Origin: Candidatus Hydrogenedentota bacterium
GTDB lineage: Bacteria; Hydrogenedentota; Hydrogenedentia; Hydrogenedentales; JAGMZX01
Assembly (NCBI GenBank): GCA_018005585.1
Contig: JAGMZX010000008.1
Span: 15,361-72,903, forward strand
Length of the DNA: 57,543 bases
Reading direction: 5' to 3'
Shown here: one piece after another, positions 42,155-50,776 of the stretch
How positions within the stretch are numbered: the first letter of the stretch is position 1
How the letters are laid out: the number at the start of each line of letters is the position of its first letter
Position numbers and translations under genes: made by a program
The notes under the pieces: generated by a model
Told to the model about the DNA's origin: nothing
The model's database searches: none
Seen by the model: the letters and a program-made list of their open reading frames with translations, nothing else

Positions 42155-42514
42155 GCCCTTTCCCGCTTTGCGGCCTACCATTCCAGTCTTTTCCGGCGCA
42201 TGTCAAGCGTAGTTCGCGCGCTATGCCGCCGCCAAGGGGCGTCGCTTTCGCCGGAGATGGCCCTGCGCATCGAGAAGGCGTTCGGGCCGAAGATGGACAC
42301 ACTGCTGCGCATGCAGACGGCCTACGATACCGCGAAGGCGCGCCACCGCGCGGATGAAATCAAGGTGAAGCGGTATATACCGGCCTCTGCCCGCGTTCGT
42401 GCGCATTCCGCGCGTTAGGCGGCAAGACGCCGCGCGCGGCCTTCTGTTCTTTCCCAGTGCAATGCACCTGCATAGGGGGATGGGTGTGAGGGGAGAACAG
42501 AAAGGGAACTGTGG
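42155..42514. other. Divergent intergenic region, 360 bp, with antitoxin remnant
   Basis: Between GH28 (minus) and the portal gene (plus). About half is occupied by a HigA-like remnant (42206-42418). The rest holds a small palindrome ATGCA-CC-TGCAT (42462-42473) and an AAAGGGA box before the portal start. No integrase attachment site was recognised. Confidence 0.5.
42206..42418 (+). pseudogene. Remnant of a HigA-family antitoxin (C-terminal part)
   Basis: The plus-strand frame ending at TAG 42416-42418 reads ASLSPEMALRIEKAFG, then LLRMQTAYDTAKARHRADE and IKVKRYIP. This is the conserved end of HigA/XRE-type addiction-module antitoxins, including their last helix and the terminal IKVxRYxP. The N-terminal half, with the first helices of the helix-turn-helix, is missing; the sequence before 42206 belongs to the GH28 promoter side and has no start codon with a ribosome binding site. 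No HigB toxin gene is nearby. It is best read as a decayed toxin-antitoxin system at the edge of the capsid cassette. Confidence 0.7.
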
Positions 42515-43810
42515 ATGGCACGTTGGTGGCCGATGCCCTTCTGGCGCGAAAAACGGGGTTTGGGCCGGCGCGCCGGCGAAGGCAAGGGCCGGGGCTTGCG
42601 CCCCGTGCCGCTGCCGCCCGCGGGCGTGTTCAAGACGGCGTCGGTGCCGGAGGACGTGAGCCGGTTCGGCGTGCACTGGGACCATTTCGTGCCGCTGCCG
42701 AACGAGACGCCTTTCGAGATGCTGCAGGTCTACCGCTTCCTGCGCGACGCGATACCGGACATCTCGGACGCGGTATGGACGTGGAAGCGGCTGTGCCAGA
42801 CGGGCTACGAGGTCGAAATCGCTGATGCAAGTTCGGACACGGCCCGGCGGCGCGCCCAGCGGCTGATCGACGACCTGAACCACCGTGTCAACAGCGGCGA
42901 TCGCGGCATGGACGGCCTGCTCGATGTCTTCTACACGTCCCTGTTCACATACGGGGCGGCGGCGCTCGAGATCGTATTGTCGCAGGGCCGCGAATCCATC
43001 TGGGACGTGGTCCCGGTGGACGTCTGGACGGTCCGGTTCAAACGCGAAGAGGGCGCGCTCGAGGCGTATCAGGTCTGGAACGGCGCGGAAATCCCGCTGC
43101 CGACGGAGCGGTTCATTTACGTCGGCATGGACCGCGACGGCACCAACCCGTACGGGCGCTCGATGCTGCGCTCAATCCCGTTCGTGGTAAAGATTCAGCA
43201 GCGCCTGCTCGAGGACATGGCGAAGGCGACGCACAACGCGGGCTGGGCCAAGCTGCACGTGCAGTACGCGCCGGACGAACGGCAGCGCGGGGAAAGCCCC
43301 GAGGCGTACCAGGCGCGCATCGGCGCGAACTTCAAGGATCTGCGCGACAGGCTCAGCGGGCTTGAAGTGGACCAGAACCTCGTCACGTACGACAACGTGA
43401 AGATTTCGGTGGTCCGCGCCGATCAGCACGCGCAGGTCTTCTACGACAATCACAAGGCGGTCGAAGAACAGGTGATCACGGGCATGCATCTGATGCCAAT
43501 CCTGCTGGGGCGCAACTACGGCACGACCGAAACCTACGGCACGGCGCAATTCGAGATCATCACGCGGCAGGTCGAAGGCATCAACCGCAGCGTCAAGCGC
43601 ATCCTCGAACGGCTCTACAACTTCGAACTGGCGCTGATGTGGGGCGAGGCGCGCGCGAAGGTGCACATGCGACAGAACCGCACCGTGGACGTGCTCAAAG
43701 AAGCACAGGCGCGCAGCCGCGACATTGCCAATGCGCTGACGCTGTTGGACCGCGGCTTGGTCGGGCGCGACCAGGCCGCCGCGCTGCTGCGCCTTCCCGA
43801 ATCCCGCTGA
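42515..43810 (+). CDS. Phage portal-like protein
   Basis: A 431-residue protein with portal features: LPNETPFEMLQVYRFLRDA, PVDVWTVRFKREEGALEAYQ, NPYGRSMLRSIPFVVKIQQR (the typical stem/clip-region block), VEEQVITGMHLMPILLGRNYG with TETYGTAQFEI, and an Arg/Ala-rich helical end. Portals form the dodecameric ring at one capsid vertex through which DNA passes. The N-terminus is basic and Arg/Gly-rich. ATG at 42515 has an AAAGGGA box. It starts the cassette. A terminase large subunit, which normally precedes a portal, is absent; a HigA remnant is found instead. Confidence 0.82.
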   Translation: MARWWPMPFWREKRGLGRRAGEGKGRGLRPVPLPPAGVFKTASVPEDVSRFGVHWDHFVPLPNETPFEMLQVYRFLRDAIPDISDAVWTWKRLCQTGYEVEIADASSDTARRRAQRLIDDLNHRVNSGDRGMDGLLDVFYTSLFTYGAAALEIVLSQGRESIWDVVPVDVWTVRFKREEGALEAYQVWNGAEIPLPTERFIYVGMDRDGTNPYGRSMLRSIPFVVKIQQRLLEDMAKATHNAGWAKLHVQYAPDERQRGESPEAYQARIGANFKDLRDRLSGLEVDQNLVTYDNVKISVVRADQHAQVFYDNHKAVEEQVITGMHLMPILLGRNYGTTETYGTAQFEIITRQVEGINRSVKRILERLYNFELALMWGEARAKVHMRQNRTVDVLKEAQARSRDIANALTLLDRGLVGRDQAAALLRLPESR

Positions 43811-43838
43811 ATCCCGCCACATCATCGGAGGCATCCGC

Positions 43839-44546
43839 ATGGAACTGGAACCCTTTGTCTTTCGGCGCGACGGCGCGCTGCTCGGCATGCGCGCGGAGGA
43901 ATCCGGCGCGAACGCTGAGGCACAGAAGCTGCTCGACACGGTGAACCGCTACACGCTGCGCCCGCTCGCGCGCGAGGAATTCGCCGTTTTCACCCTCGAC
44001 CTCTGTCATAACCAGATCGACCGGCATTTCAGCCGGTTCCCCGACGAGGAACTCGACAAGATCGACCGGCTGACGCCGGGCCGCCCGTTGATGGAGCGCC
44101 ACGACCTGCGCGGGTCGCTGCCGCGCGGCACGTTCTTCCGCTCGCAGTTGCACCGCGACGGCGAGCGCCTTTCCGTGCGGCCCGACGTGTACGTCCTGCG
44201 CACGGGGGACAATCGCGACTTCATTCTCAACATCGAGGGCGGCGTCTATCGCGAGACGTCGATCGGCTTTTCCTTCCGCACACCCGAGTGCTCGGTTTGT
44301 GGGCGCGACCTGCGCGCCTGCGACCACGTGCCCGGCCGCACCTATAGCGGCAAGCTCTGCCACTTCATCATGCGCGACGTGCTGGAAGTGATCGAGGGTT
44401 CAGTTGTTGCGTCAGGTTCGCAGGGCACGCGATTCGTGCCGAGCGAGGCGCGATGCGTGCCCGCCCCGGACGCGCTCGCGATTGCGCGCGACCTGTGGCA
44501 CGCGCCCATCGAATTGCAGCCGCGCCGGTTCTGGGCCGCCGAATGA
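43839..44546 (+). CDS. Prohead protease-like protein (HK97/S78 type)
   Basis: A 235-residue protein. HK97-type prohead proteases mature the capsid by cutting scaffold and coat. The catalytic pair is recognisable: His88 in PLMERHDLRGS and Ser141 in YRETSIGFSF, with beta strands between. A cluster C151-x2-C154 ... C161-x-H163 ... C174 (ECSVCGRDLRACDH) follows the Ser and probably binds zinc, which the HK97 enzyme lacks. GGAGG lies eight bases before the ATG. It sits between the portal and an LigD-type domain protein. Confidence 0.82.
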   Translation: MELEPFVFRRDGALLGMRAEESGANAEAQKLLDTVNRYTLRPLAREEFAVFTLDLCHNQIDRHFSRFPDEELDKIDRLTPGRPLMERHDLRGSLPRGTFFRSQLHRDGERLSVRPDVYVLRTGDNRDFILNIEGGVYRETSIGFSFRTPECSVCGRDLRACDHVPGRTYSGKLCHFIMRDVLEVIEGSVVASGSQGTRFVPSEARCVPAPDALAIARDLWHAPIELQPRRFWAAE

Positions 44547-44574
44547 CCTGGTCCCACCAACGCGAGGAAACAAG

Positions 44575-45279
44575 ATGTTCTGGAAACTGGATTGTGAGCA
44601 GGCCGCGCCTGCGCGAGAGACGGACGCGGAACGGTTTGCCGGGCGTTTCGTACTGCACCGGCATCACGATGCGGAGGGTCCCCACCTCGATTTGCGCCTT
44701 GAACAGGACGGTTATCTTGTCGGCTGGCGCATCGAGAGCACGAAGCTCGAAGGCGGACTCTGGGCGCGCGAGAAGGGGCCGCACCCGGTGGCATGGCTCG
44801 AACAGAACGGCGACGCCATGCGCGAGGACGCCGGGCTGTACGCCTGGCTGGAACGCGACGCGGCCAGCGGTACGCTCATCCTTCGCGGGGCGCAAGGGGA
44901 CCGCGTGCTGCGTGTGCGCCGCGTATCCAGGTTACCCACGGCGGCAATGCGCGGCGTGTGCGAGGCGCTGCGGGAATGCGCCGCGCCTGCGGACCATGCG
45001 GGCAGGCTCGTGCGCGACGGCGTTGCGGCGCGGCGGCGGGCCATTGCGCGGCTCTGCGGCTTGGGCCGCGAACTGGACGGCAGCGCGTTCGACGAGACGG
45101 TCTGGCGGCGCACGCTCGAATCGTGCAGCCTCGATGAAATCTACGCGCATCTGCGGGCCTTCGAGGTGCGTTTCGACACGAAATATCCGCCGCAGCCCGT
45201 GTCGCGGCCCGTGCCGCTCGCGGATGCGCCGCCGTGCGGCGGACGCAACCGCGCTCTGGAAATCGTGCAGAACGGATAA
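44575..45279 (+). CDS. LigD-type 3'-phosphoesterase-like protein in a capsid cassette
   Basis: A 234-residue protein. Residues about 20-120 match the 3'-phosphoesterase (PE, LigD_N) domain: RFVLHRHHDAEGPHLDLRLEQDG aligns with the PE core, here noted by its parts FVLHRHH (His30/31), HLDLRLE (His37, Asp39, Arg41) and KGPHPVAWL (His70), followed by beta strands ending VLRVRRVSR. These are the metal and phosphate ligands of bacterial PE enzymes, which trim 3'-phosphates and 3'-ribonucleotides at DNA ends. The rest (about 125-234) is helical and Arg-rich. No ligase or polymerase domain is attached and no ku gene is nearby. It occupies the slot between protease and capsid genes, where scaffold is often found. 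GAGGAAA precedes ATG 44575. Confidence 0.72.
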   Translation: MFWKLDCEQAAPARETDAERFAGRFVLHRHHDAEGPHLDLRLEQDGYLVGWRIESTKLEGGLWAREKGPHPVAWLEQNGDAMREDAGLYAWLERDAASGTLILRGAQGDRVLRVRRVSRLPTAAMRGVCEALRECAAPADHAGRLVRDGVAARRRAIARLCGLGRELDGSAFDETVWRRTLESCSLDEIYAHLRAFEVRFDTKYPPQPVSRPVPLADAPPCGGRNRALEIVQNG

Positions 45280-45302
45280 GCCGTACTGGGGGACACAAAC
45301 GC

Positions 45303-45317
45303 GCTCCCCGCGGGAGC
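45303..45317 (+). repeat. Small hairpin before the decoration gene
   Basis: GCTCCC (45303-45308), CGC loop, GGGAGC (45312-45317), 34 bases upstream of the decoration protein start, in the gap after the phosphoesterase-like gene. No T-tract. Confidence 0.35.
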
Positions 45318-45351
45318 CAAAACCCAAACAAGACAGACAGGAGGAAGCATC

Positions 45352-45732
45352 ATGGCATTTGGCGATATCGGCGGCGTTGTCACCGAGTTGATCCTCACGT
45401 GCGCGACGCCCGCGTCTGGCAGCGTGGCGATCGGCAAGGGCGACGCCGTAAAACTGACCGGCAATTACACCGTAACCAACGCGACCAGCGCGGAAGACGC
45501 CGTCTTCGGCCAGGCGCTCGCCGACGCCGCGGAAAACAGCGTGGCCATCCCGGTGAAGGTTCGCGGCGTCTGCGAATTCCAATACACGGGCTCGGCCCCG
45601 GCCGTGGACGGCGCGGCGGGCATCACGGCCTCCGATACCGCGGGCAAGGTCAAGACTCCGGCATCGGGCAACGGCAAAGGAATCAACGTCAAAGTCGACA
45701 CGGCCGCCACGACGGTCTACGTGTTGCTGTAG
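45352..45732 (+). CDS. Capsid decoration protein-like (DUF2190 type)
   Basis: A 126-residue beta-rich protein of low complexity (Ala, Gly, Thr, Val). It has the form of DUF2190-like capsid decoration proteins: VAIGKGDAVKLTGNYTVTNA, then VFGQALADAAENSVAIPVKV, then GKGINVKVDTAATTVYVLL. These trimeric proteins sit on the capsid surface and stabilise it. AGGAGGAAG precedes the ATG. It is followed after 15 bases by the major capsid protein gene; the pair is flanked by hairpins at 45303 and 46830. Confidence 0.75.
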   Translation: MAFGDIGGVVTELILTCATPASGSVAIGKGDAVKLTGNYTVTNATSAEDAVFGQALADAAENSVAIPVKVRGVCEFQYTGSAPAVDGAAGITASDTAGKVKTPASGNGKGINVKVDTAATTVYVLL

Positions 45733-45747
45733 GAGGCGCGCATCACC

Positions 45748-46800
45748 ATGAACTACCACGACGGTTTAATCCGCGACCGCGTCGCGTTTCTCGGCCAGCC
45801 CGCGGAGAAGCTGCACGCGGTCCGCGGCCAGCAGTTGTACGAAACGCTGCAATCCCTCGGATTGACCCACCGGCACTACTTCCAGGCGCTAGGCACGAAC
45901 GTGCAGGACTACTGCGCCCGGGAGTTCGGCATCGACGTGGGCCGGATCACGGTCGAGCGATTCTTCCAGTCAGACCCGAACGCGAAATGGCTGTTCCCGG
46001 ACATCGTGCGCGAGGCCGTGCTTGACGGACTCCGGCGCAAGCCGCTGTATCCTGAGTTGATCGTGCGCGACGAGGCGGTCAACGGCACCGCCTACGACCT
46101 GCCCTACGTCACCGAGAACGAGGCGGAGGAGGAACTGCGCACGGTGGCGGAGGGCGCGGCAATCCCCGAGTCCGAGATCGCCTACGGCGACCGCATCGTG
46201 CGCCTGGACAAGCTGGGCCGCGGCGTGGTCGCGTCGTATGAGGTCGTGCGCCGCATGTCCGTCGACATGCTCCGTGTGCACCTGCGGCGCATCGGCGAGC
46301 GGCTGGGGCGCACGCTTGATGCCCGGCTCGCGATGGTGCTGGTCGAGGGGGACGCGTCCGGCCCGGGCACCGCGCCGCTGGTCCTCAACACGGCGACGGG
46401 CAACACGTGGGCCTACGCGGACCTCGTGACCGGTTTTCTGACGTTGACCGCGGGCCACTACTTCACGCCCACGCACATGCTGGCCGACCCCGAGACCTGC
46501 GAGGCGATCCTGAACCTCGCCGAGATCAAGGACAGCCAGTGGTTCGACTTCGCGAAGACGGGCAACCTGCCCACGCCGCTCGGCGTGAAGCTCGCACCCA
46601 TGGCTGGCCACCCCGAGAAGAAACTGACCATCCTCGACGCGGGCTATGCCGTTCAGAAGCTCACCGAGCAGGACCTCCTCGTCGAAAGCGACAAGCTCAT
46701 CAACCAGCAGTGGGACCGCACGTACCTGACCGTGGTCACGGACTTCGCGATCCTCTATGACAAGGCGCGCGTCGTCCTGAACAGCGACTGGACCCCGTAA
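45748..46800 (+). CDS. Major capsid protein-like
   Basis: A 350-residue protein in the position and size class of an HK97-fold coat protein. Features: SDPNAKWLFPDIVREAVLDG, a beta-rich E-loop-like region (LPYVTENEAEEELRTVAEG), the P-domain spine helix (RRMSVDMLRVHLRRIGERLG), and a late block TPTHMLADPETCEAILNLA typical of A-domain strands. ATG at 45748 follows GGAGG. There is no long N-terminal scaffold-like extension, so a separate scaffold or the phosphoesterase-like protein may fill that role. A strong hairpin lies 30 bases after the stop. It is probably the most abundant product of the cassette. Confidence 0.8.
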   Translation: MNYHDGLIRDRVAFLGQPAEKLHAVRGQQLYETLQSLGLTHRHYFQALGTNVQDYCAREFGIDVGRITVERFFQSDPNAKWLFPDIVREAVLDGLRRKPLYPELIVRDEAVNGTAYDLPYVTENEAEEELRTVAEGAAIPESEIAYGDRIVRLDKLGRGVVASYEVVRRMSVDMLRVHLRRIGERLGRTLDARLAMVLVEGDASGPGTAPLVLNTATGNTWAYADLVTGFLTLTAGHYFTPTHMLADPETCEAILNLAEIKDSQWFDFAKTGNLPTPLGVKLAPMAGHPEKKLTILDAGYAVQKLTEQDLLVESDKLINQQWDRTYLTVVTDFAILYDKARVVLNSDWTP

Positions 46801-46829
46801 CCGAACCTTGTCCGACCCCACCCGCACAT

Positions 46830-46868
46830 GCCGGCGCGGGGAGACTGCTCCCTTCTCCCCGCGCCGGC
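46830..46868 (+). terminator. Strong hairpin after the major capsid gene
   Basis: Perfect 15-bp arms GCCGGCGCGGGGAGA (46830-46844) and TCTCCCCGCGCCGGC (46854-46868) with a 9-base loop. It lies between the capsid stop and the connector start and could attenuate or process the transcript. No T-tract follows, so full termination is uncertain. Confidence 0.6.
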
Positions 46869-46885
46869 CATAAGGAACCTGCATC

Positions 46886-47302
46886 ATGGCTACCTTCGCT
46901 ACCGAAGACGACGTCCGCGAACGTCTCCAGGCCCATGACACCGAGACGATTCCGTCCGGTCTTGTTACAGCCATGCTCGAGGACGCGCACGAGGAAGTGC
47001 TGCGCCGGTTCGATCTTGCGTACGAAGAAACGCCCCTCCCCGCGGGACTCGTCGCGGGCGAAGCGCTGCTGGCGGGCGCGCGCCTCCTGCAAGCGCTGGC
47101 CTCGGCCGACGCCATCGAGCAGCAGCACCTCAGCATCGGTGGACAGCGTTTCGAGGCGGGCAGCCGGTTCGCGGCGCTCCTGGCCATGGCGGACCAGGCA
47201 GAGGCGCGGGCCTGGGAGATGCTCGAGCCCTATCTCCTGTCCACGCTCGCGCAACGGGAGCTGGACGTCTCGGACAGCACGCCCGTGCTCGGCGGGGAGT
47301 GA
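46886..47302 (+). CDS. Head-tail connector-like protein
   Basis: A 138-residue helical protein starting MATFATEDDVRERLQAHD, which resembles gp6-like/DUF1320 connectors. After a helix of Arg/Glu pairs (SGLVTAMLEDAHEEVLRRF) come a hydrophobic helix pair (EALLAGARLLQALASADAI) and a Gly strand GQRFEAGSR. Connector proteins close the portal after DNA packaging. Position, right after the capsid gene, supports this. AAGGA lies before the ATG. Its stop overlaps the next start (GTGA). Confidence 0.65.
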   Translation: MATFATEDDVRERLQAHDTETIPSGLVTAMLEDAHEEVLRRFDLAYEETPLPAGLVAGEALLAGARLLQALASADAIEQQHLSIGGQRFEAGSRFAALLAMADQAEARAWEMLEPYLLSTLAQRELDVSDSTPVLGGE

Positions 47303-47994
47303 AGCCCGTGGCGATTACCTTGGGCAATTACGTCTTTGACGAGACGCGCACGGCCATCGCGGAGAAATACGCGGAAGTCGGCGGCCGCGACGCCCGCCAG
47401 GTCCGGCTGTCGGGCGCGATACTCGGCAAGCGCACCCTGGCCGAACTCGAAGCTGCGCTCGACGCCGTGCTGGCCGCCGCTTCGGCGGACACCGCGGACA
47501 CGCCGCTCGTCCTGCGCGAAGGCCGCCGGTTACTGGTGCGGCGCACCGGCTTCACGCGCGAGGTGAGCCGCAAACCGCTCGTCGGCGCATTCACCGTGCA
47601 GCTCGAAGCGCCGTCCTCCTTCGAAGAAGCCGTCGACGAAACCGAAGTGAACTGGAACATCTCAGCCTCAGGCGTAACGCGGACGCTCACGGCTGGCGGC
47701 AATGCGCCCGCGCCGCTGCGCATCACCCTCGCCGCTTCCGGCAGCGTCATTGCGCCCCGGTTCAGCGACGGGGTGCGCGCCATTGCATATTCCGGCGCCG
47801 TTGCGAGCGGCGAGGCACTCGTTTTCGACGGCGCCGCGGGCCGCGTCACGCTCGAAGGCGAGGACGTCACGCCCTACACGGACGGCGTGTTTCCGCGGGT
47901 CTCGCCCGCAAGCACGATGCTCACATACACGGACGATCCGGACAGCACGCACGTGTGCGCCGTCACGATCGCGTACCGGGACCGTTGGTGGTAA
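47299..47994 (+). CDS. Phage tail-like protein (distal-tail or tube type)
   Basis: A 231-residue protein with a GTG start overlapping the connector stop. It has two halves: an N-terminal mixed region (ITLGNYVFDETRTAIAEKY, then LGKRTLAELEAALDAVLAAA) and a beta-rich C-terminal half (NWNISASGVTRTLTAGGNAP, EALVFDGAAGRVTLEGEDVT, DRWW end). Similar layouts are found in Dit-like and other short tail proteins. It is followed two bases later by the nuclease-containing tail protein. The assignment rests on context and fold pattern, not on a specific motif. Confidence 0.55.
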   Translation: MKPVAITLGNYVFDETRTAIAEKYAEVGGRDARQVRLSGAILGKRTLAELEAALDAVLAAASADTADTPLVLREGRRLLVRRTGFTREVSRKPLVGAFTVQLEAPSSFEEAVDETEVNWNISASGVTRTLTAGGNAPAPLRITLAASGSVIAPRFSDGVRAIAYSGAVASGEALVFDGAAGRVTLEGEDVTPYTDGVFPRVSPASTMLTYTDDPDSTHVCAVTIAYRDRWW

Positions 47995-47996
47995 TC

Positions 47997-49736
47997 ATGG
48001 AATACCGCATCGAAGTCTACGATACCTGGGGCCGCCGCGTCGGCGCATTCGACGACGTGCCATTGCTCGAAGCCACACGCACCGCGCCGGATGAGCCCGA
48101 CGCCGTGCGCGGCCTGCTGCCCGCGGAGGCCGCGGCGTTGGGCACGGCGTTCCGCGTCCGCGTGTTGGTCGAGGGCGCGCTGTTCTGCGAGGCGCCGGTA
48201 GCCGGCATCGGCCCGCAATGGGGCGATACACGCAAGTTGATCCTGGATCGCTATGTGCCATTCCACACGGTGCTTGAAGTTGGCGCGGAACAGCCGCCGG
48301 ACGTGATTAACAGGCCTGTATCGCAGGCGCATACCAACCAGGAAATCAGCGCCATTGTCAAGAGCGTCATCAATGGCGCGCTCGGGCCCGTGCACTATAC
48401 GGTCGCGCATGCGGCATACCCGGATGGCGCACAGCGGGAATACGCGAAGTTTCTTGCGCGCAAGTCGCTCGACAACGAACTCGAGGTCGGCGGCATCGCG
48501 GCTGGTCAGTGGGCCGGCGCGCCGCGCCTCGACGCAAGCAACGCCTACGCCAAGGACGGCGACACCATTGCCGGGCTGGCCGTGGACGGCGCGGCATGGC
48601 CGGACCTGCGCCTGATGATGGTGGACGCGGAGGAAACGAGCCGGAACAGTCACGCCGTCAAGCGCCATCCCGAAACGGCGGCGTGGACCGATGCGCGGTA
48701 TGACGCGAGTGGCTACAAGCGCGCCGCCGACGCGGCCCGGGCGTTCCTGCAAGACCTGCTCGGTCAGAAAGGCATCGATTACGTCGAGTTGAATCCGCAT
48801 AAAGACGCCTCCGGCGCGTACGACGACCGGATCGACGCATATGGGCGCTATATCGGCCTCGTCTTCGGCGGAGGCGAGTGTCTCAACGCCGCGCTTGTCG
48901 AAACAGGCCACGCCGACGTCTACCTCTACGAGGAAGGCCGCTACCACGTGCCGGAAATGGCCCTGAAGGAGTTCTATTCCTATCGGGGCGCCCACGGAGA
49001 CTCGGTACAACATACGGGCGCCTCCCTGGCAGAATTCGACGCTTCAGGCGGCGTGCTTGAAGTGCTCGCCGCGCTTGCCTACGCCGCGCACGGCCATGTC
49101 TTCACGGTAAATGCGGACAAGGCCGTTGCATTCGGACCGGTTGAAGCGCCGGACCACGTGTTCTTCTACGATCCGCTGCGGATGAGCGTGCGTTTTGGCG
49201 CGGATGCCCGCGACCTCGCAAATTACATCGCGTTACGGGGCAATCCGTTCACGGGCGCGCTCAACAAGACATACAGCCGCGCGTCGAGCATTGACGCCTA
49301 CGGAGTCGCGGCGCGCAAGTTCGACTACTTCAGCATTTCGCGCGTCGAAGACGCGGATCGCATCGCTGCGGGGCTGCTGGCCGATATCGCGTATCCCGAG
49401 CCGTCCGGGACCGTCACCTTCTTCGACGGGAACCACGAGGCGCGCGTCGGGGACCTCGTCGAACTACGCGGGGCGCCCGTGCGCCGCATCGAACCCGCAC
49501 TCGACGACGAATGGGACGGACGTTACCCGGACAAGATCGTCGCGCGCGTGCGCCGTGTAAGCCACAAGTTCTCCGGTCGTCGGGCAAGCACGACGCTGCA
49601 TCTCGGGTCGCCGCTGCGGTCCGTCGCGCGCCCGCTGAGTTTCATCGTGCGCAGTCAGCCCGCCGCGTCGACGTTGTTCGGATTCCGGCTCGACGATGCG
49701 CGCGTCGGATTGGACATGGGATTTCACCTGGACTGA
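47997..49736 (+). CDS. Phage tail protein with inserted staphylococcal-nuclease-like domain
   Basis: A 579-residue protein with three parts. Residues about 1-165 are a beta-rich tail region (MEYRIEVYDTWGRRVGAF). Residues about 180-330 match the staphylococcal nuclease (thermonuclease) fold: KDGDTIAGL (Asp189, like Asp21), DLRLMMVDAEE (Arg205, Asp210, Glu213, like Arg35, Asp40, Glu43), YKRAADAARAFLQDLLG, YVELNP, and IDAYGRYIGLVFGGGE (Arg284, like Arg87), then CLNAALVETGHADVYLYEE. The rest, 340-579, is a beta-rich tail or hub region (HVFTVNADKAVAFGPVEAP, DGNHEARVGDLVELRG, STTLHLGSPLRSV). No signal peptide. All four catalytic residues of the nuclease are retained. It lies two bases after the previous gene. 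Confidence 0.78.
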   Translation: MEYRIEVYDTWGRRVGAFDDVPLLEATRTAPDEPDAVRGLLPAEAAALGTAFRVRVLVEGALFCEAPVAGIGPQWGDTRKLILDRYVPFHTVLEVGAEQPPDVINRPVSQAHTNQEISAIVKSVINGALGPVHYTVAHAAYPDGAQREYAKFLARKSLDNELEVGGIAAGQWAGAPRLDASNAYAKDGDTIAGLAVDGAAWPDLRLMMVDAEETSRNSHAVKRHPETAAWTDARYDASGYKRAADAARAFLQDLLGQKGIDYVELNPHKDASGAYDDRIDAYGRYIGLVFGGGECLNAALVETGHADVYLYEEGRYHVPEMALKEFYSYRGAHGDSVQHTGASLAEFDASGGVLEVLAALAYAAHGHVFTVNADKAVAFGPVEAPDHVFFYDPLRMSVRFGADARDLANYIALRGNPFTGALNKTYSRASSIDAYGVAARKFDYFSISRVEDADRIAAGLLADIAYPEPSGTVTFFDGNHEARVGDLVELRGAPVRRIEPALDDEWDGRYPDKIVARVRRVSHKFSGRRASTTLHLGSPLRSVARPLSFIVRSQPAASTLFGFRLDDARVGLDMGFHLD

Positions 49737-49741
49737 GTCTT

Positions 49742-49814
49742 TGGGGAACGCGGCCGGGACGCCTGTTGTTGCATTGCCTTCACCCCTCCCCTCTGTCCCG
49801 GCCGCGTTTCCCCA
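49742..49814 (+). terminator. Long hairpin between tail and fibre genes
   Basis: Arms TGGGGAACGCGGCCGGGAC (49742-49760) and the matching sequence at 49795-49814 (one extra A gives a single-base bulge) enclose a 34-base loop. It begins six bases after the tail-protein stop and ends 22 bases before the fibre-like start. It is a likely terminator or RNA-processing site. Confidence 0.6.
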
Positions 49815-49836
49815 GCTACACCGATTGGAGGACGCC

Positions 49837-50358
49837 ATGGCGTTCAAAGGACCCGCCTACTTAAAGACGACCTGGAGTTTCGAGGAGCGTCCTGTCGCTT
49901 CCTCTAAACTGAACACTTGGGACGACCGCATCGAGGCCGCGCTCGAACTCGTGTGCCTGCTGCTGAGCCTCGCCTGGGGCGGCGGCAGCGGCGTGCTGCG
50001 CGGGGCCGCGACCGACGACCTCAAGACCGTCGCCAAGACCACGCCGGGATTCTCTGTCGAGGTCAAGCCCGGCTACGCGATCATCGATGCATTCCCGTTC
50101 AAGCTGGCCGCGACAACGGAGACCGTCGAAGTGACGCCGCCCGTCTCCCAGAACCGCATCGACCTCGTCGAGGCGAGCCTCGAATCGTGGAGCATCAAGA
50201 CCAAACAAGGTGCGGAAGCCGCTTCGCCGAGCGCGCCCGCCCCTGACACCGGCTGCATTGCACTGGCGCACTTGTACCTGCGCCCGGGCATGACCGTTAT
50301 CAAGAACTCCGACGACTCGACCAACGGCTACATCATCGACGCGCGTACGTTCCTGTGA
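49837..50358 (+). CDS. Fibre or appendage-like protein of the capsid cassette
   Basis: A 173-residue protein starting MAFKGPAYLKTTWSFEERP, with GGAGG upstream of ATG 49837. The region LKTVAKTTPGFSVEVKPGYAIIDAFPFKL and TVEVTPPVSQNRIDLVEASLES matches phage tail-appendage or baseplate-wedge N-terminal domains that contain a GxAxIDGFPF-like strand and a NRIDLV motif. It ends with TNGYIIDARTFL. It is followed by a small membrane protein gene, and a fibre/membrane pair also lies at 10.7-11.7 kb. It probably attaches to a tail or surface; ligand unknown. Confidence 0.65.
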   Translation: MAFKGPAYLKTTWSFEERPVASSKLNTWDDRIEAALELVCLLLSLAWGGGSGVLRGAATDDLKTVAKTTPGFSVEVKPGYAIIDAFPFKLAATTETVEVTPPVSQNRIDLVEASLESWSIKTKQGAEAASPSAPAPDTGCIALAHLYLRPGMTVIKNSDDSTNGYIIDARTFL

Positions 50359-50395
50359 GCCAGGCCCGCCGCGCAAAATAGAGGAGATTTTTGCC

Positions 50396-50776
50396 ATGCA
50401 AATCGATACGCTCGCCGTGCCGGACGTGGCGCTAACGCTGGCCGCAGCCGGCCTCGGCGCGGCCTGGGCATTCTTCAAGGGCACCGCGTGGTTCGAGCGC
50501 CTGCAGCGGCGCCGTTTCGCCAAGGTGCTTCACGTGCTCGAAGCCGCCGTCGACGAGACCTACCGCGTTTACGTCGAAACGATCAAGGCCGCGCGAGCCG
50601 ATGGCCGGCTCACGCCGGAAGAACGCCGCCACGCACGGGAACTCGCCCGCGAACGCGCCCTCGTTCTGGGCCGCGACCAAGGCATCGATGTCCTCGCCGA
50701 ACTGGGCCGGGACTACCTCGACCTCTGGATCGCCCGGTCCGTGAAGCGGCTGAAGCGGCGCGCCAAGCCTTCGTAA
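50396..50776 (+). CDS. Small membrane protein, holin-like candidate
   Basis: A 126-residue protein with one N-terminal hydrophobic helix (VALTLAAAGLGAAWAFFKG, about 11-29), then a basic, amphipathic helical body (WFERLQRRRFAKVLHVLEA), an acidic stretch with LTPEERRHARELARERA, and a very basic end (RSVKRLKRRAKPS). GAGGAG precedes the ATG. Holins and some membrane anchors of phage particles look like this, but one helix is few for a holin. It closes the cassette; a sigma-70-like promoter follows for the next host gene. Confidence 0.55.
   Translation: MQIDTLAVPDVALTLAAAGLGAAWAFFKGTAWFERLQRRRFAKVLHVLEAAVDETYRVYVETIKAARADGRLTPEERRHARELARERALVLGRDQGIDVLAELGRDYLDLWIARSVKRLKRRAKPS

Follow-up and report, generated by a model that had tools for sequence, protein, structure and literature searches.

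A vertically inherited, phage-derived gene cluster of Candidatus Hydrogenedentota with a nuclease-like domain in its hub-position tail protein

Head, stub-tail and lysis-type genes at the locus

The window (by which we mean the whole stretch of DNA analyzed, 57,543 nucleotides from a genome of Candidatus Hydrogenedentota) contains a cluster of ten genes for head, stub-tail and lysis functions at 42515-50776, a span of ~8.3 kb. All ten are read from the forward strand in the following order: portal, head morphogenesis/protease, LigD-phosphoesterase-like, decoration, major capsid protein (MCP), adaptor, distal tail protein (Dit), hub-position protein with an internal staphylococcal nuclease (SNase) domain, baseplate-like and holin-like.

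The head genes are the most readily recognized. The portal protein (42515..43810), of the Mu type, matches PF06074 (E 2e-8) and phrog_3753 (E 1e-47) and is a conserved syntenic gene; the head morphogenesis protein (43839..44546) matches phrog_16951 (E 2e-34) and from its position is also a putative prohead protease. A head decoration protein (45352..45732; phrog_4588, E 4e-13) is followed by the MCP (45748..46800; PF25209, E 1e-10; phrog_3922, E 2e-47). The sequence at 42256-42416, just upstream of the portal gene, is a remnant similar to the C-terminal end of a HigA-type antitoxin (a weak match to phrog_1381, E 0.004).

Between the protease and decoration genes lies a conserved gene (44575..45279) whose product we label, putatively, LigD 3′-phosphoesterase-like. 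Its profile matches PDB entry 3p43 (E 6e-8), and LigD_N is found in 18 of 24 members of the family (best E 8e-6), within which H30, D32, H37, D39, R41 and H70 are invariant; the protein from the window scores 18.7 bits against PF13298, below the Pfam cut-off of 31.1.

The tail portion is short. A putative head-tail adaptor (46886..47302), a member of a conserved family with a weak match to phrog_137 (E 0.7), stands between the MCP and a Dit-like protein (47299..47994; PF22768 SPP1_Dit, E 4e-7; phrog_33 Dit, E 2e-10). The hub-position gene (47997..49736; protein P0001, 579 amino acids) comes next, and is followed by a putative baseplate or virion structural protein (49837..50358; phrog_9534, E 7e-5), the start of which we place at the ATG at 49837, after GGAGG, where homologues begin to align (residue 48 of the longer open reading frame). 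The conserved last gene of the cluster (50396..50776) encodes a small, putatively holin-like protein with a weak match to phrog_13712 holin (E 0.08) and, as read from the sequence, an apolar N-terminal membrane segment. No tail-tube or tape-measure gene is present between MCP and Dit in any hub-bearing cluster. A search with one tape-measure Pfam family returned matches in 4 of 15 genomes, all on contigs other than that of the cluster; in the window genome a tape-measure-like protein (L218, contig C185:7026-7520) probably belongs to a separate prophage.

The order of the genes is fixed in more than 30 genomes. The clusters of relatives include additional genes, namely an XhlA-like membrane protein, a secreted fibre-like protein and an M15 peptidase; both the M15 endolysin and the XhlA-like gene are absent from the window genome. 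The fibre-like family carries a signal peptide, varies in length and, in several genomes, lies between the protease and phosphoesterase genes (L061:6281-7084, L044:8034-9299, L053:12104-13780). In genus g4 (L037, L040) the decoration gene has no portal or protease gene upstream of it, and the cluster appears split into two loci.

Genes of the cluster are of head, tail and lysis type only; the terminase (TerL) is encoded elsewhere. In the window genome it was found on another contig: a search with PF03237 was negative, and the divergent TerL (phrog_2, E 4e-15) was recovered by way of a relative's sequence. This second locus (L128:1258-3841, contig C61) comprises TerL, a gene in the putative TerS position and a 3D-domain lipoprotein, the last a possible wall-cutting enzyme.

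The nuclease domain of the hub-position protein

The 579-residue protein had been described, from the letters of the sequence, as a phage tail protein with an inserted SNase-like domain, which we place at residues 165-335 (48489..49001). A search of the whole protein with PF00565 returned a match over residues 204-313 (E 6.6e-6, 27 bits), and a search of the excised domain gave 30.7 bits (E 4.4e-7); both lie above the curated cut-off of 21 bits. No other Pfam family matched the protein. PHROG 452 (‘endonuclease’) matched at E 2.5e-6, the staphylococcal nuclease structure 1syb was found with the single sequence (E 8.4e-5) and a further staphylococcal nuclease, 2pw5, was found with a profile of 24 sequences (E 3.3e-7). 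The alignments place DGDT (Asp189), LRL (Arg205), VDAEE (Asp210, Glu213) and YGR (Arg284) on the corresponding residues of staphylococcal nuclease, which agrees with the pairing first proposed (Asp21, Arg35, Asp40, Glu43 and Arg87). A match by chance is rejected, given a score above the curated cut-off and an active site that is conserved in relatives. AlphaFold predictions of the full protein and of the isolated domain, from alignments of 4 sequences each, had pLDDT values of 36-37.

The domain is a true insertion, because one homologue (L068) corresponds to the protein with the domain neatly left out: residues ~134-340 are missing and the two outer parts are joined in a single open reading frame. 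The view that the SNase was part of an original phage hub is disfavoured: three phage proteins examined from the position immediately following Dit are of other tail families and are without SNase, although they are not demonstrably homologous to this hub.

The part played by the remainder of the protein is suggested by gene order: in every hub-bearing locus with enough contig the gene stands directly after Dit, the place of a hub. The preliminary description had called the flanks of the domain tail-like, and the constant position beside a Dit homologue favours this, whereas the flank sequences do not: comparison with known hubs gave phrog_177 baseplate hub at E 0.2 with one member only, and a flank profile set against phage hub proteins was not significant (E 0.16, probability 0.4%). 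It is because of this want of similarity that we speak of a hub-position protein and not of a member of the Tal/gp27 family.

The hub-position protein occurs once in each of 37 genomes of Ca. Hydrogenedentota from the order to which the window genome belongs (44-75% identity), most copies being of full length and a few fragmentary; among 32 genomes from other parts of the domain it was not found. Neither 50,697 phage records (INPHARED) nor IMG/VR yielded a relative in searches with the single sequence, and a search of IMG/VR with the alignment was equally negative. Among the open-licence papers found in searches for SNase in tail proteins, no title or abstract describes such a protein.

Distribution, inheritance and loss of the tail

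Most of the genomes available are fragmented drafts, those with names being metagenome-assembled, and absences of genes were judged by similarity search. Within these bounds the capsid and terminase genes extend beyond the hub. MCP is present as a single copy in 52 of 67 Ca. Hydrogenedentota genomes (34 of the 38 good ones; in two fragmented genomes it is in two pieces), and TerL in 56 of 67 (37 of the 38 good ones), with extra, more distant copies in a few.

To compare the history of the cluster with that of its hosts, trees were built for 36 genomes from five concatenated cluster proteins and from RpoB, the species tree thus being that of one gene. The two have 16 of 33 splits in common, where random labels give three at most, and 15 of the 19 RpoB splits with support of at least 0.95 are recovered in the core-gene tree. 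No strongly supported conflict was found between the two trees of 36 taxa; at a support cut-off of 0.7 there are 9-11 conflicting splits. The correlation of path distances is 0.87, against a permutation maximum of 0.35. Values of dN/dS, from a simple count method, range from 0.03 to 0.41, and are rough because many of the synonymous distances are large. The gene set is phage-derived, vertically inherited and under purifying selection. The preliminary description had assigned the protein to a phage; it belongs instead to a single-copy cluster, inherited and maintained by selection throughout a phylum, that is devoid of tube and tape-measure genes.

Not all families have retained the tail. Families f5 and f6, and f10 in large part, have an M15 and/or a holin-like gene directly after the MCP, with neither Dit nor hub; adaptor and Dit, without the hub, persist in a few f10 genomes; and one f10 genus (G041, G051) retains the hub. 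The nested position of this genus suggests that the ancestor of f10 had the hub and that repeated losses followed. Purifying selection continues to act on the capsid genes of the tailless families. Loci L110, L111, L113, L115 and L117-L121, from f6 and f10, contain capsid, portal, phosphoesterase and lysis genes and are without Dit, hub or baseplate gene. Since families that have no hub protein keep both terminase and capsid, the SNase is not essential to the element, and for the same reason a part in packaging, such as an indispensable processing of the packaged DNA, becomes less likely.

Function of the element and comparison with known systems

On balance, and with moderate confidence, we favour the view that the cluster is a domesticated element akin to gene transfer agents (GTAs), transmitted vertically in the phylum Ca. 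Hydrogenedentota, with a tip protein in the hub position into which an SNase has been inserted. It looks like a GTA that has, until now, gone unrecognized, and none of the open-licence papers searched joins Hydrogenedentes with gene transfer agents. The formation of a particle, the packaging of cellular DNA, the tip position of the hub and the activity of the nuclease are all inferred from the genes. A headful terminase, encoded at the second locus, would pack cellular DNA into a small capsid; the particle would bear a stub made of adaptor, Dit and hub in place of a tail tube; and M15 peptidase and/or holin-like proteins would lyse the producer cell. Displayed at the tip, the SNase might cut nucleic acid at the surface of the recipient or in the surrounding matrix. 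We propose this last step only tentatively: the reason for placing the action of the SNase on what the particle meets at a recipient is that other hubs carry an inserted lysozyme or peptidase that cuts the cell wall.

ComEC, a family found in 64 of the 67 genomes of the phylum, would permit DNA uptake. A more elaborate scheme, to which we give little credence, would have the tube-less GTA release its DNA at the cell surface, where the tip SNase would nick or trim it for ComEC-type uptake and the LigD-type 3′-phosphoesterase would heal the 3′-phosphate ends left by the SNase. This phosphoesterase may simply be an inheritance from the phage ancestor, where it was fused to the protease, and the pairing of nuclease with end-healing is for that reason only speculation.

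The strongest competitor to a GTA is a domesticated element with some other job: a capsid turned antagonistic, bringing a nuclease to competitors in the manner of a bacteriocin, or a capsid for the disposal or storage of DNA. A tip-mounted nuclease is what a weapon might carry, any role of benefit to the host would account for vertical inheritance and selection, and the GTA reading itself draws on gene content. We nonetheless consider a job of this kind unlikely. Terminase, portal and capsid are conserved throughout the phylum even where tail and nuclease are gone, which fits DNA packaging better than the delivery of a toxin; moreover, the hub has no conserved immunity gene for a neighbour, and there is no tube through which to inject.

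A second alternative concerns the domain and not the element: the SNase could be a structural or DNA-binding relic that has lost catalysis. SNase folds can indeed serve as non-enzymatic modules, Tudor-SN being an example, and in three of ~34 homologues the active site has degenerated in part or in full: L051 (genome G021) has D189N and D210E, L062 (G024) has D189R and L064 (G039) has several changes. These suggest that activity may have been lost in some lineages. Against a relic in general stands the complete active site kept in the alignment by 31 of 34 relatives, with each residue almost always retained (D189 in 32 of 35, R205 in 33 of 34, D210 in 32 of 34, E213 in 33 of 34 and R284 in 33 of 33). 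The domain also evolves more slowly than its flanks: mean identity to the protein of the window is 68% for the SNase part and 53% and 48% for the flanking parts, and in all five pairs compared dN/dS was lowest in the SNase part. A relic is thus improbable, and the inserted domain, with its intact-looking active site, is probably an active nuclease.

Least credible is an ordinary prophage, or its remnants, integrating repeatedly: all genes of the cluster are of phage type, and the flanking host genes are not shared among genomes, differing even between two members of one genus, but the element is always in single copy with a phylogeny like that of the species, has no relative above ~33% identity in viral collections, is bordered by host genes in the flanks scanned in the window, has its terminase at a separate locus, and spans ~8.3 kb without tube or tape measure at a GC content of 66% and with GC3 like that of neighbouring genes. 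A recent prophage is rejected.

If the element is a GTA, as we favour, then a whole phylum of uncultured bacteria would be added to the range of this mode of gene exchange, and the element would be about as old as the phylum itself. The families form a series that begins with a stub tail bearing the nuclease, passes through clusters that keep just adaptor and Dit, and ends with those that have no tail, while selection preserves the genes for capsid, terminase and lysis; which parts of a phage are needed by a DNA-shuttling particle thereby becomes testable from genomes.

Free phages offer the first comparison. Those with portal, protease and MCP in the same order as here (IMG/VR L169-L200, MT835769 and KT001914, Caulobacter phage Seuss) differ in having the protease and a phosphoesterase-like domain fused in one open reading frame, where the cluster has separate genes; the fusion of protease and LigD phosphoesterase is seen in many free phages with like head genes (L173-L200). 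Identity to free-phage relatives is ~25-33% for MCP and 20-32% for TerL. In phage L174 MCP and Dit are ~9 kb apart, and in L212 a tape measure of 1532 amino acids immediately precedes Dit. In 13 of the records of phages with portal, protease and MCP, a search for the hub family was negative.

Known GTAs are closer in organization. In RcGTA and CcGTA structural genes are clustered, accessory genes lie elsewhere and inheritance is vertical (PMC11841831). Like them, the element has a head-tail cluster of phage origin, accessory genes placed elsewhere, a long history of vertical inheritance and genes for lysis (PMC11841831). It differs from both in its phylum and its capsid lineage (phrog_3753 portal, phrog_3922 MCP), in a cluster with neither tube nor tape measure, in the SNase of the hub-position protein and in the existence of families without tail genes. 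FpGTA of Faecalibacterium, in the part of its account on which we draw, has been described from a single genus, has podovirus-like genes and is documented by electron microscopy, proteomics and packaged DNA of 8.4-8.9 kb (PMC12946183). According to the same portion, it resembles the present element in its two separate operons (head/packaging and others), a cluster of ~10 kb and lysis genes (PMC12946183). Its capsids are without visible tail, which makes it the nearest likeness in the reduction of the tail; that portion of the account mentions no nuclease tail protein (PMC12946183).

The SNase itself may be set beside two groups of enzymes. Similarity above the cut-off and five active-site residues unite it with the staphylococcal nuclease family (PF00565), but here the domain is embedded between the halves of a tail-position protein and is not a secreted or stand-alone enzyme; compared with staphylococcal nuclease, the stretch from Glu213 to Arg284 is longer.

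With the T4 gp5 lysozyme and the Tal peptidases, enzyme domains inserted in tail hubs, it shares a place in a tail-tip protein after Dit. Those domains cut peptidoglycan; here the domain is that of a nuclease, and a nuclease that has replaced the usual wall-cutting enzyme at the tip of a tail would represent a novel type of tail weapon or tool.
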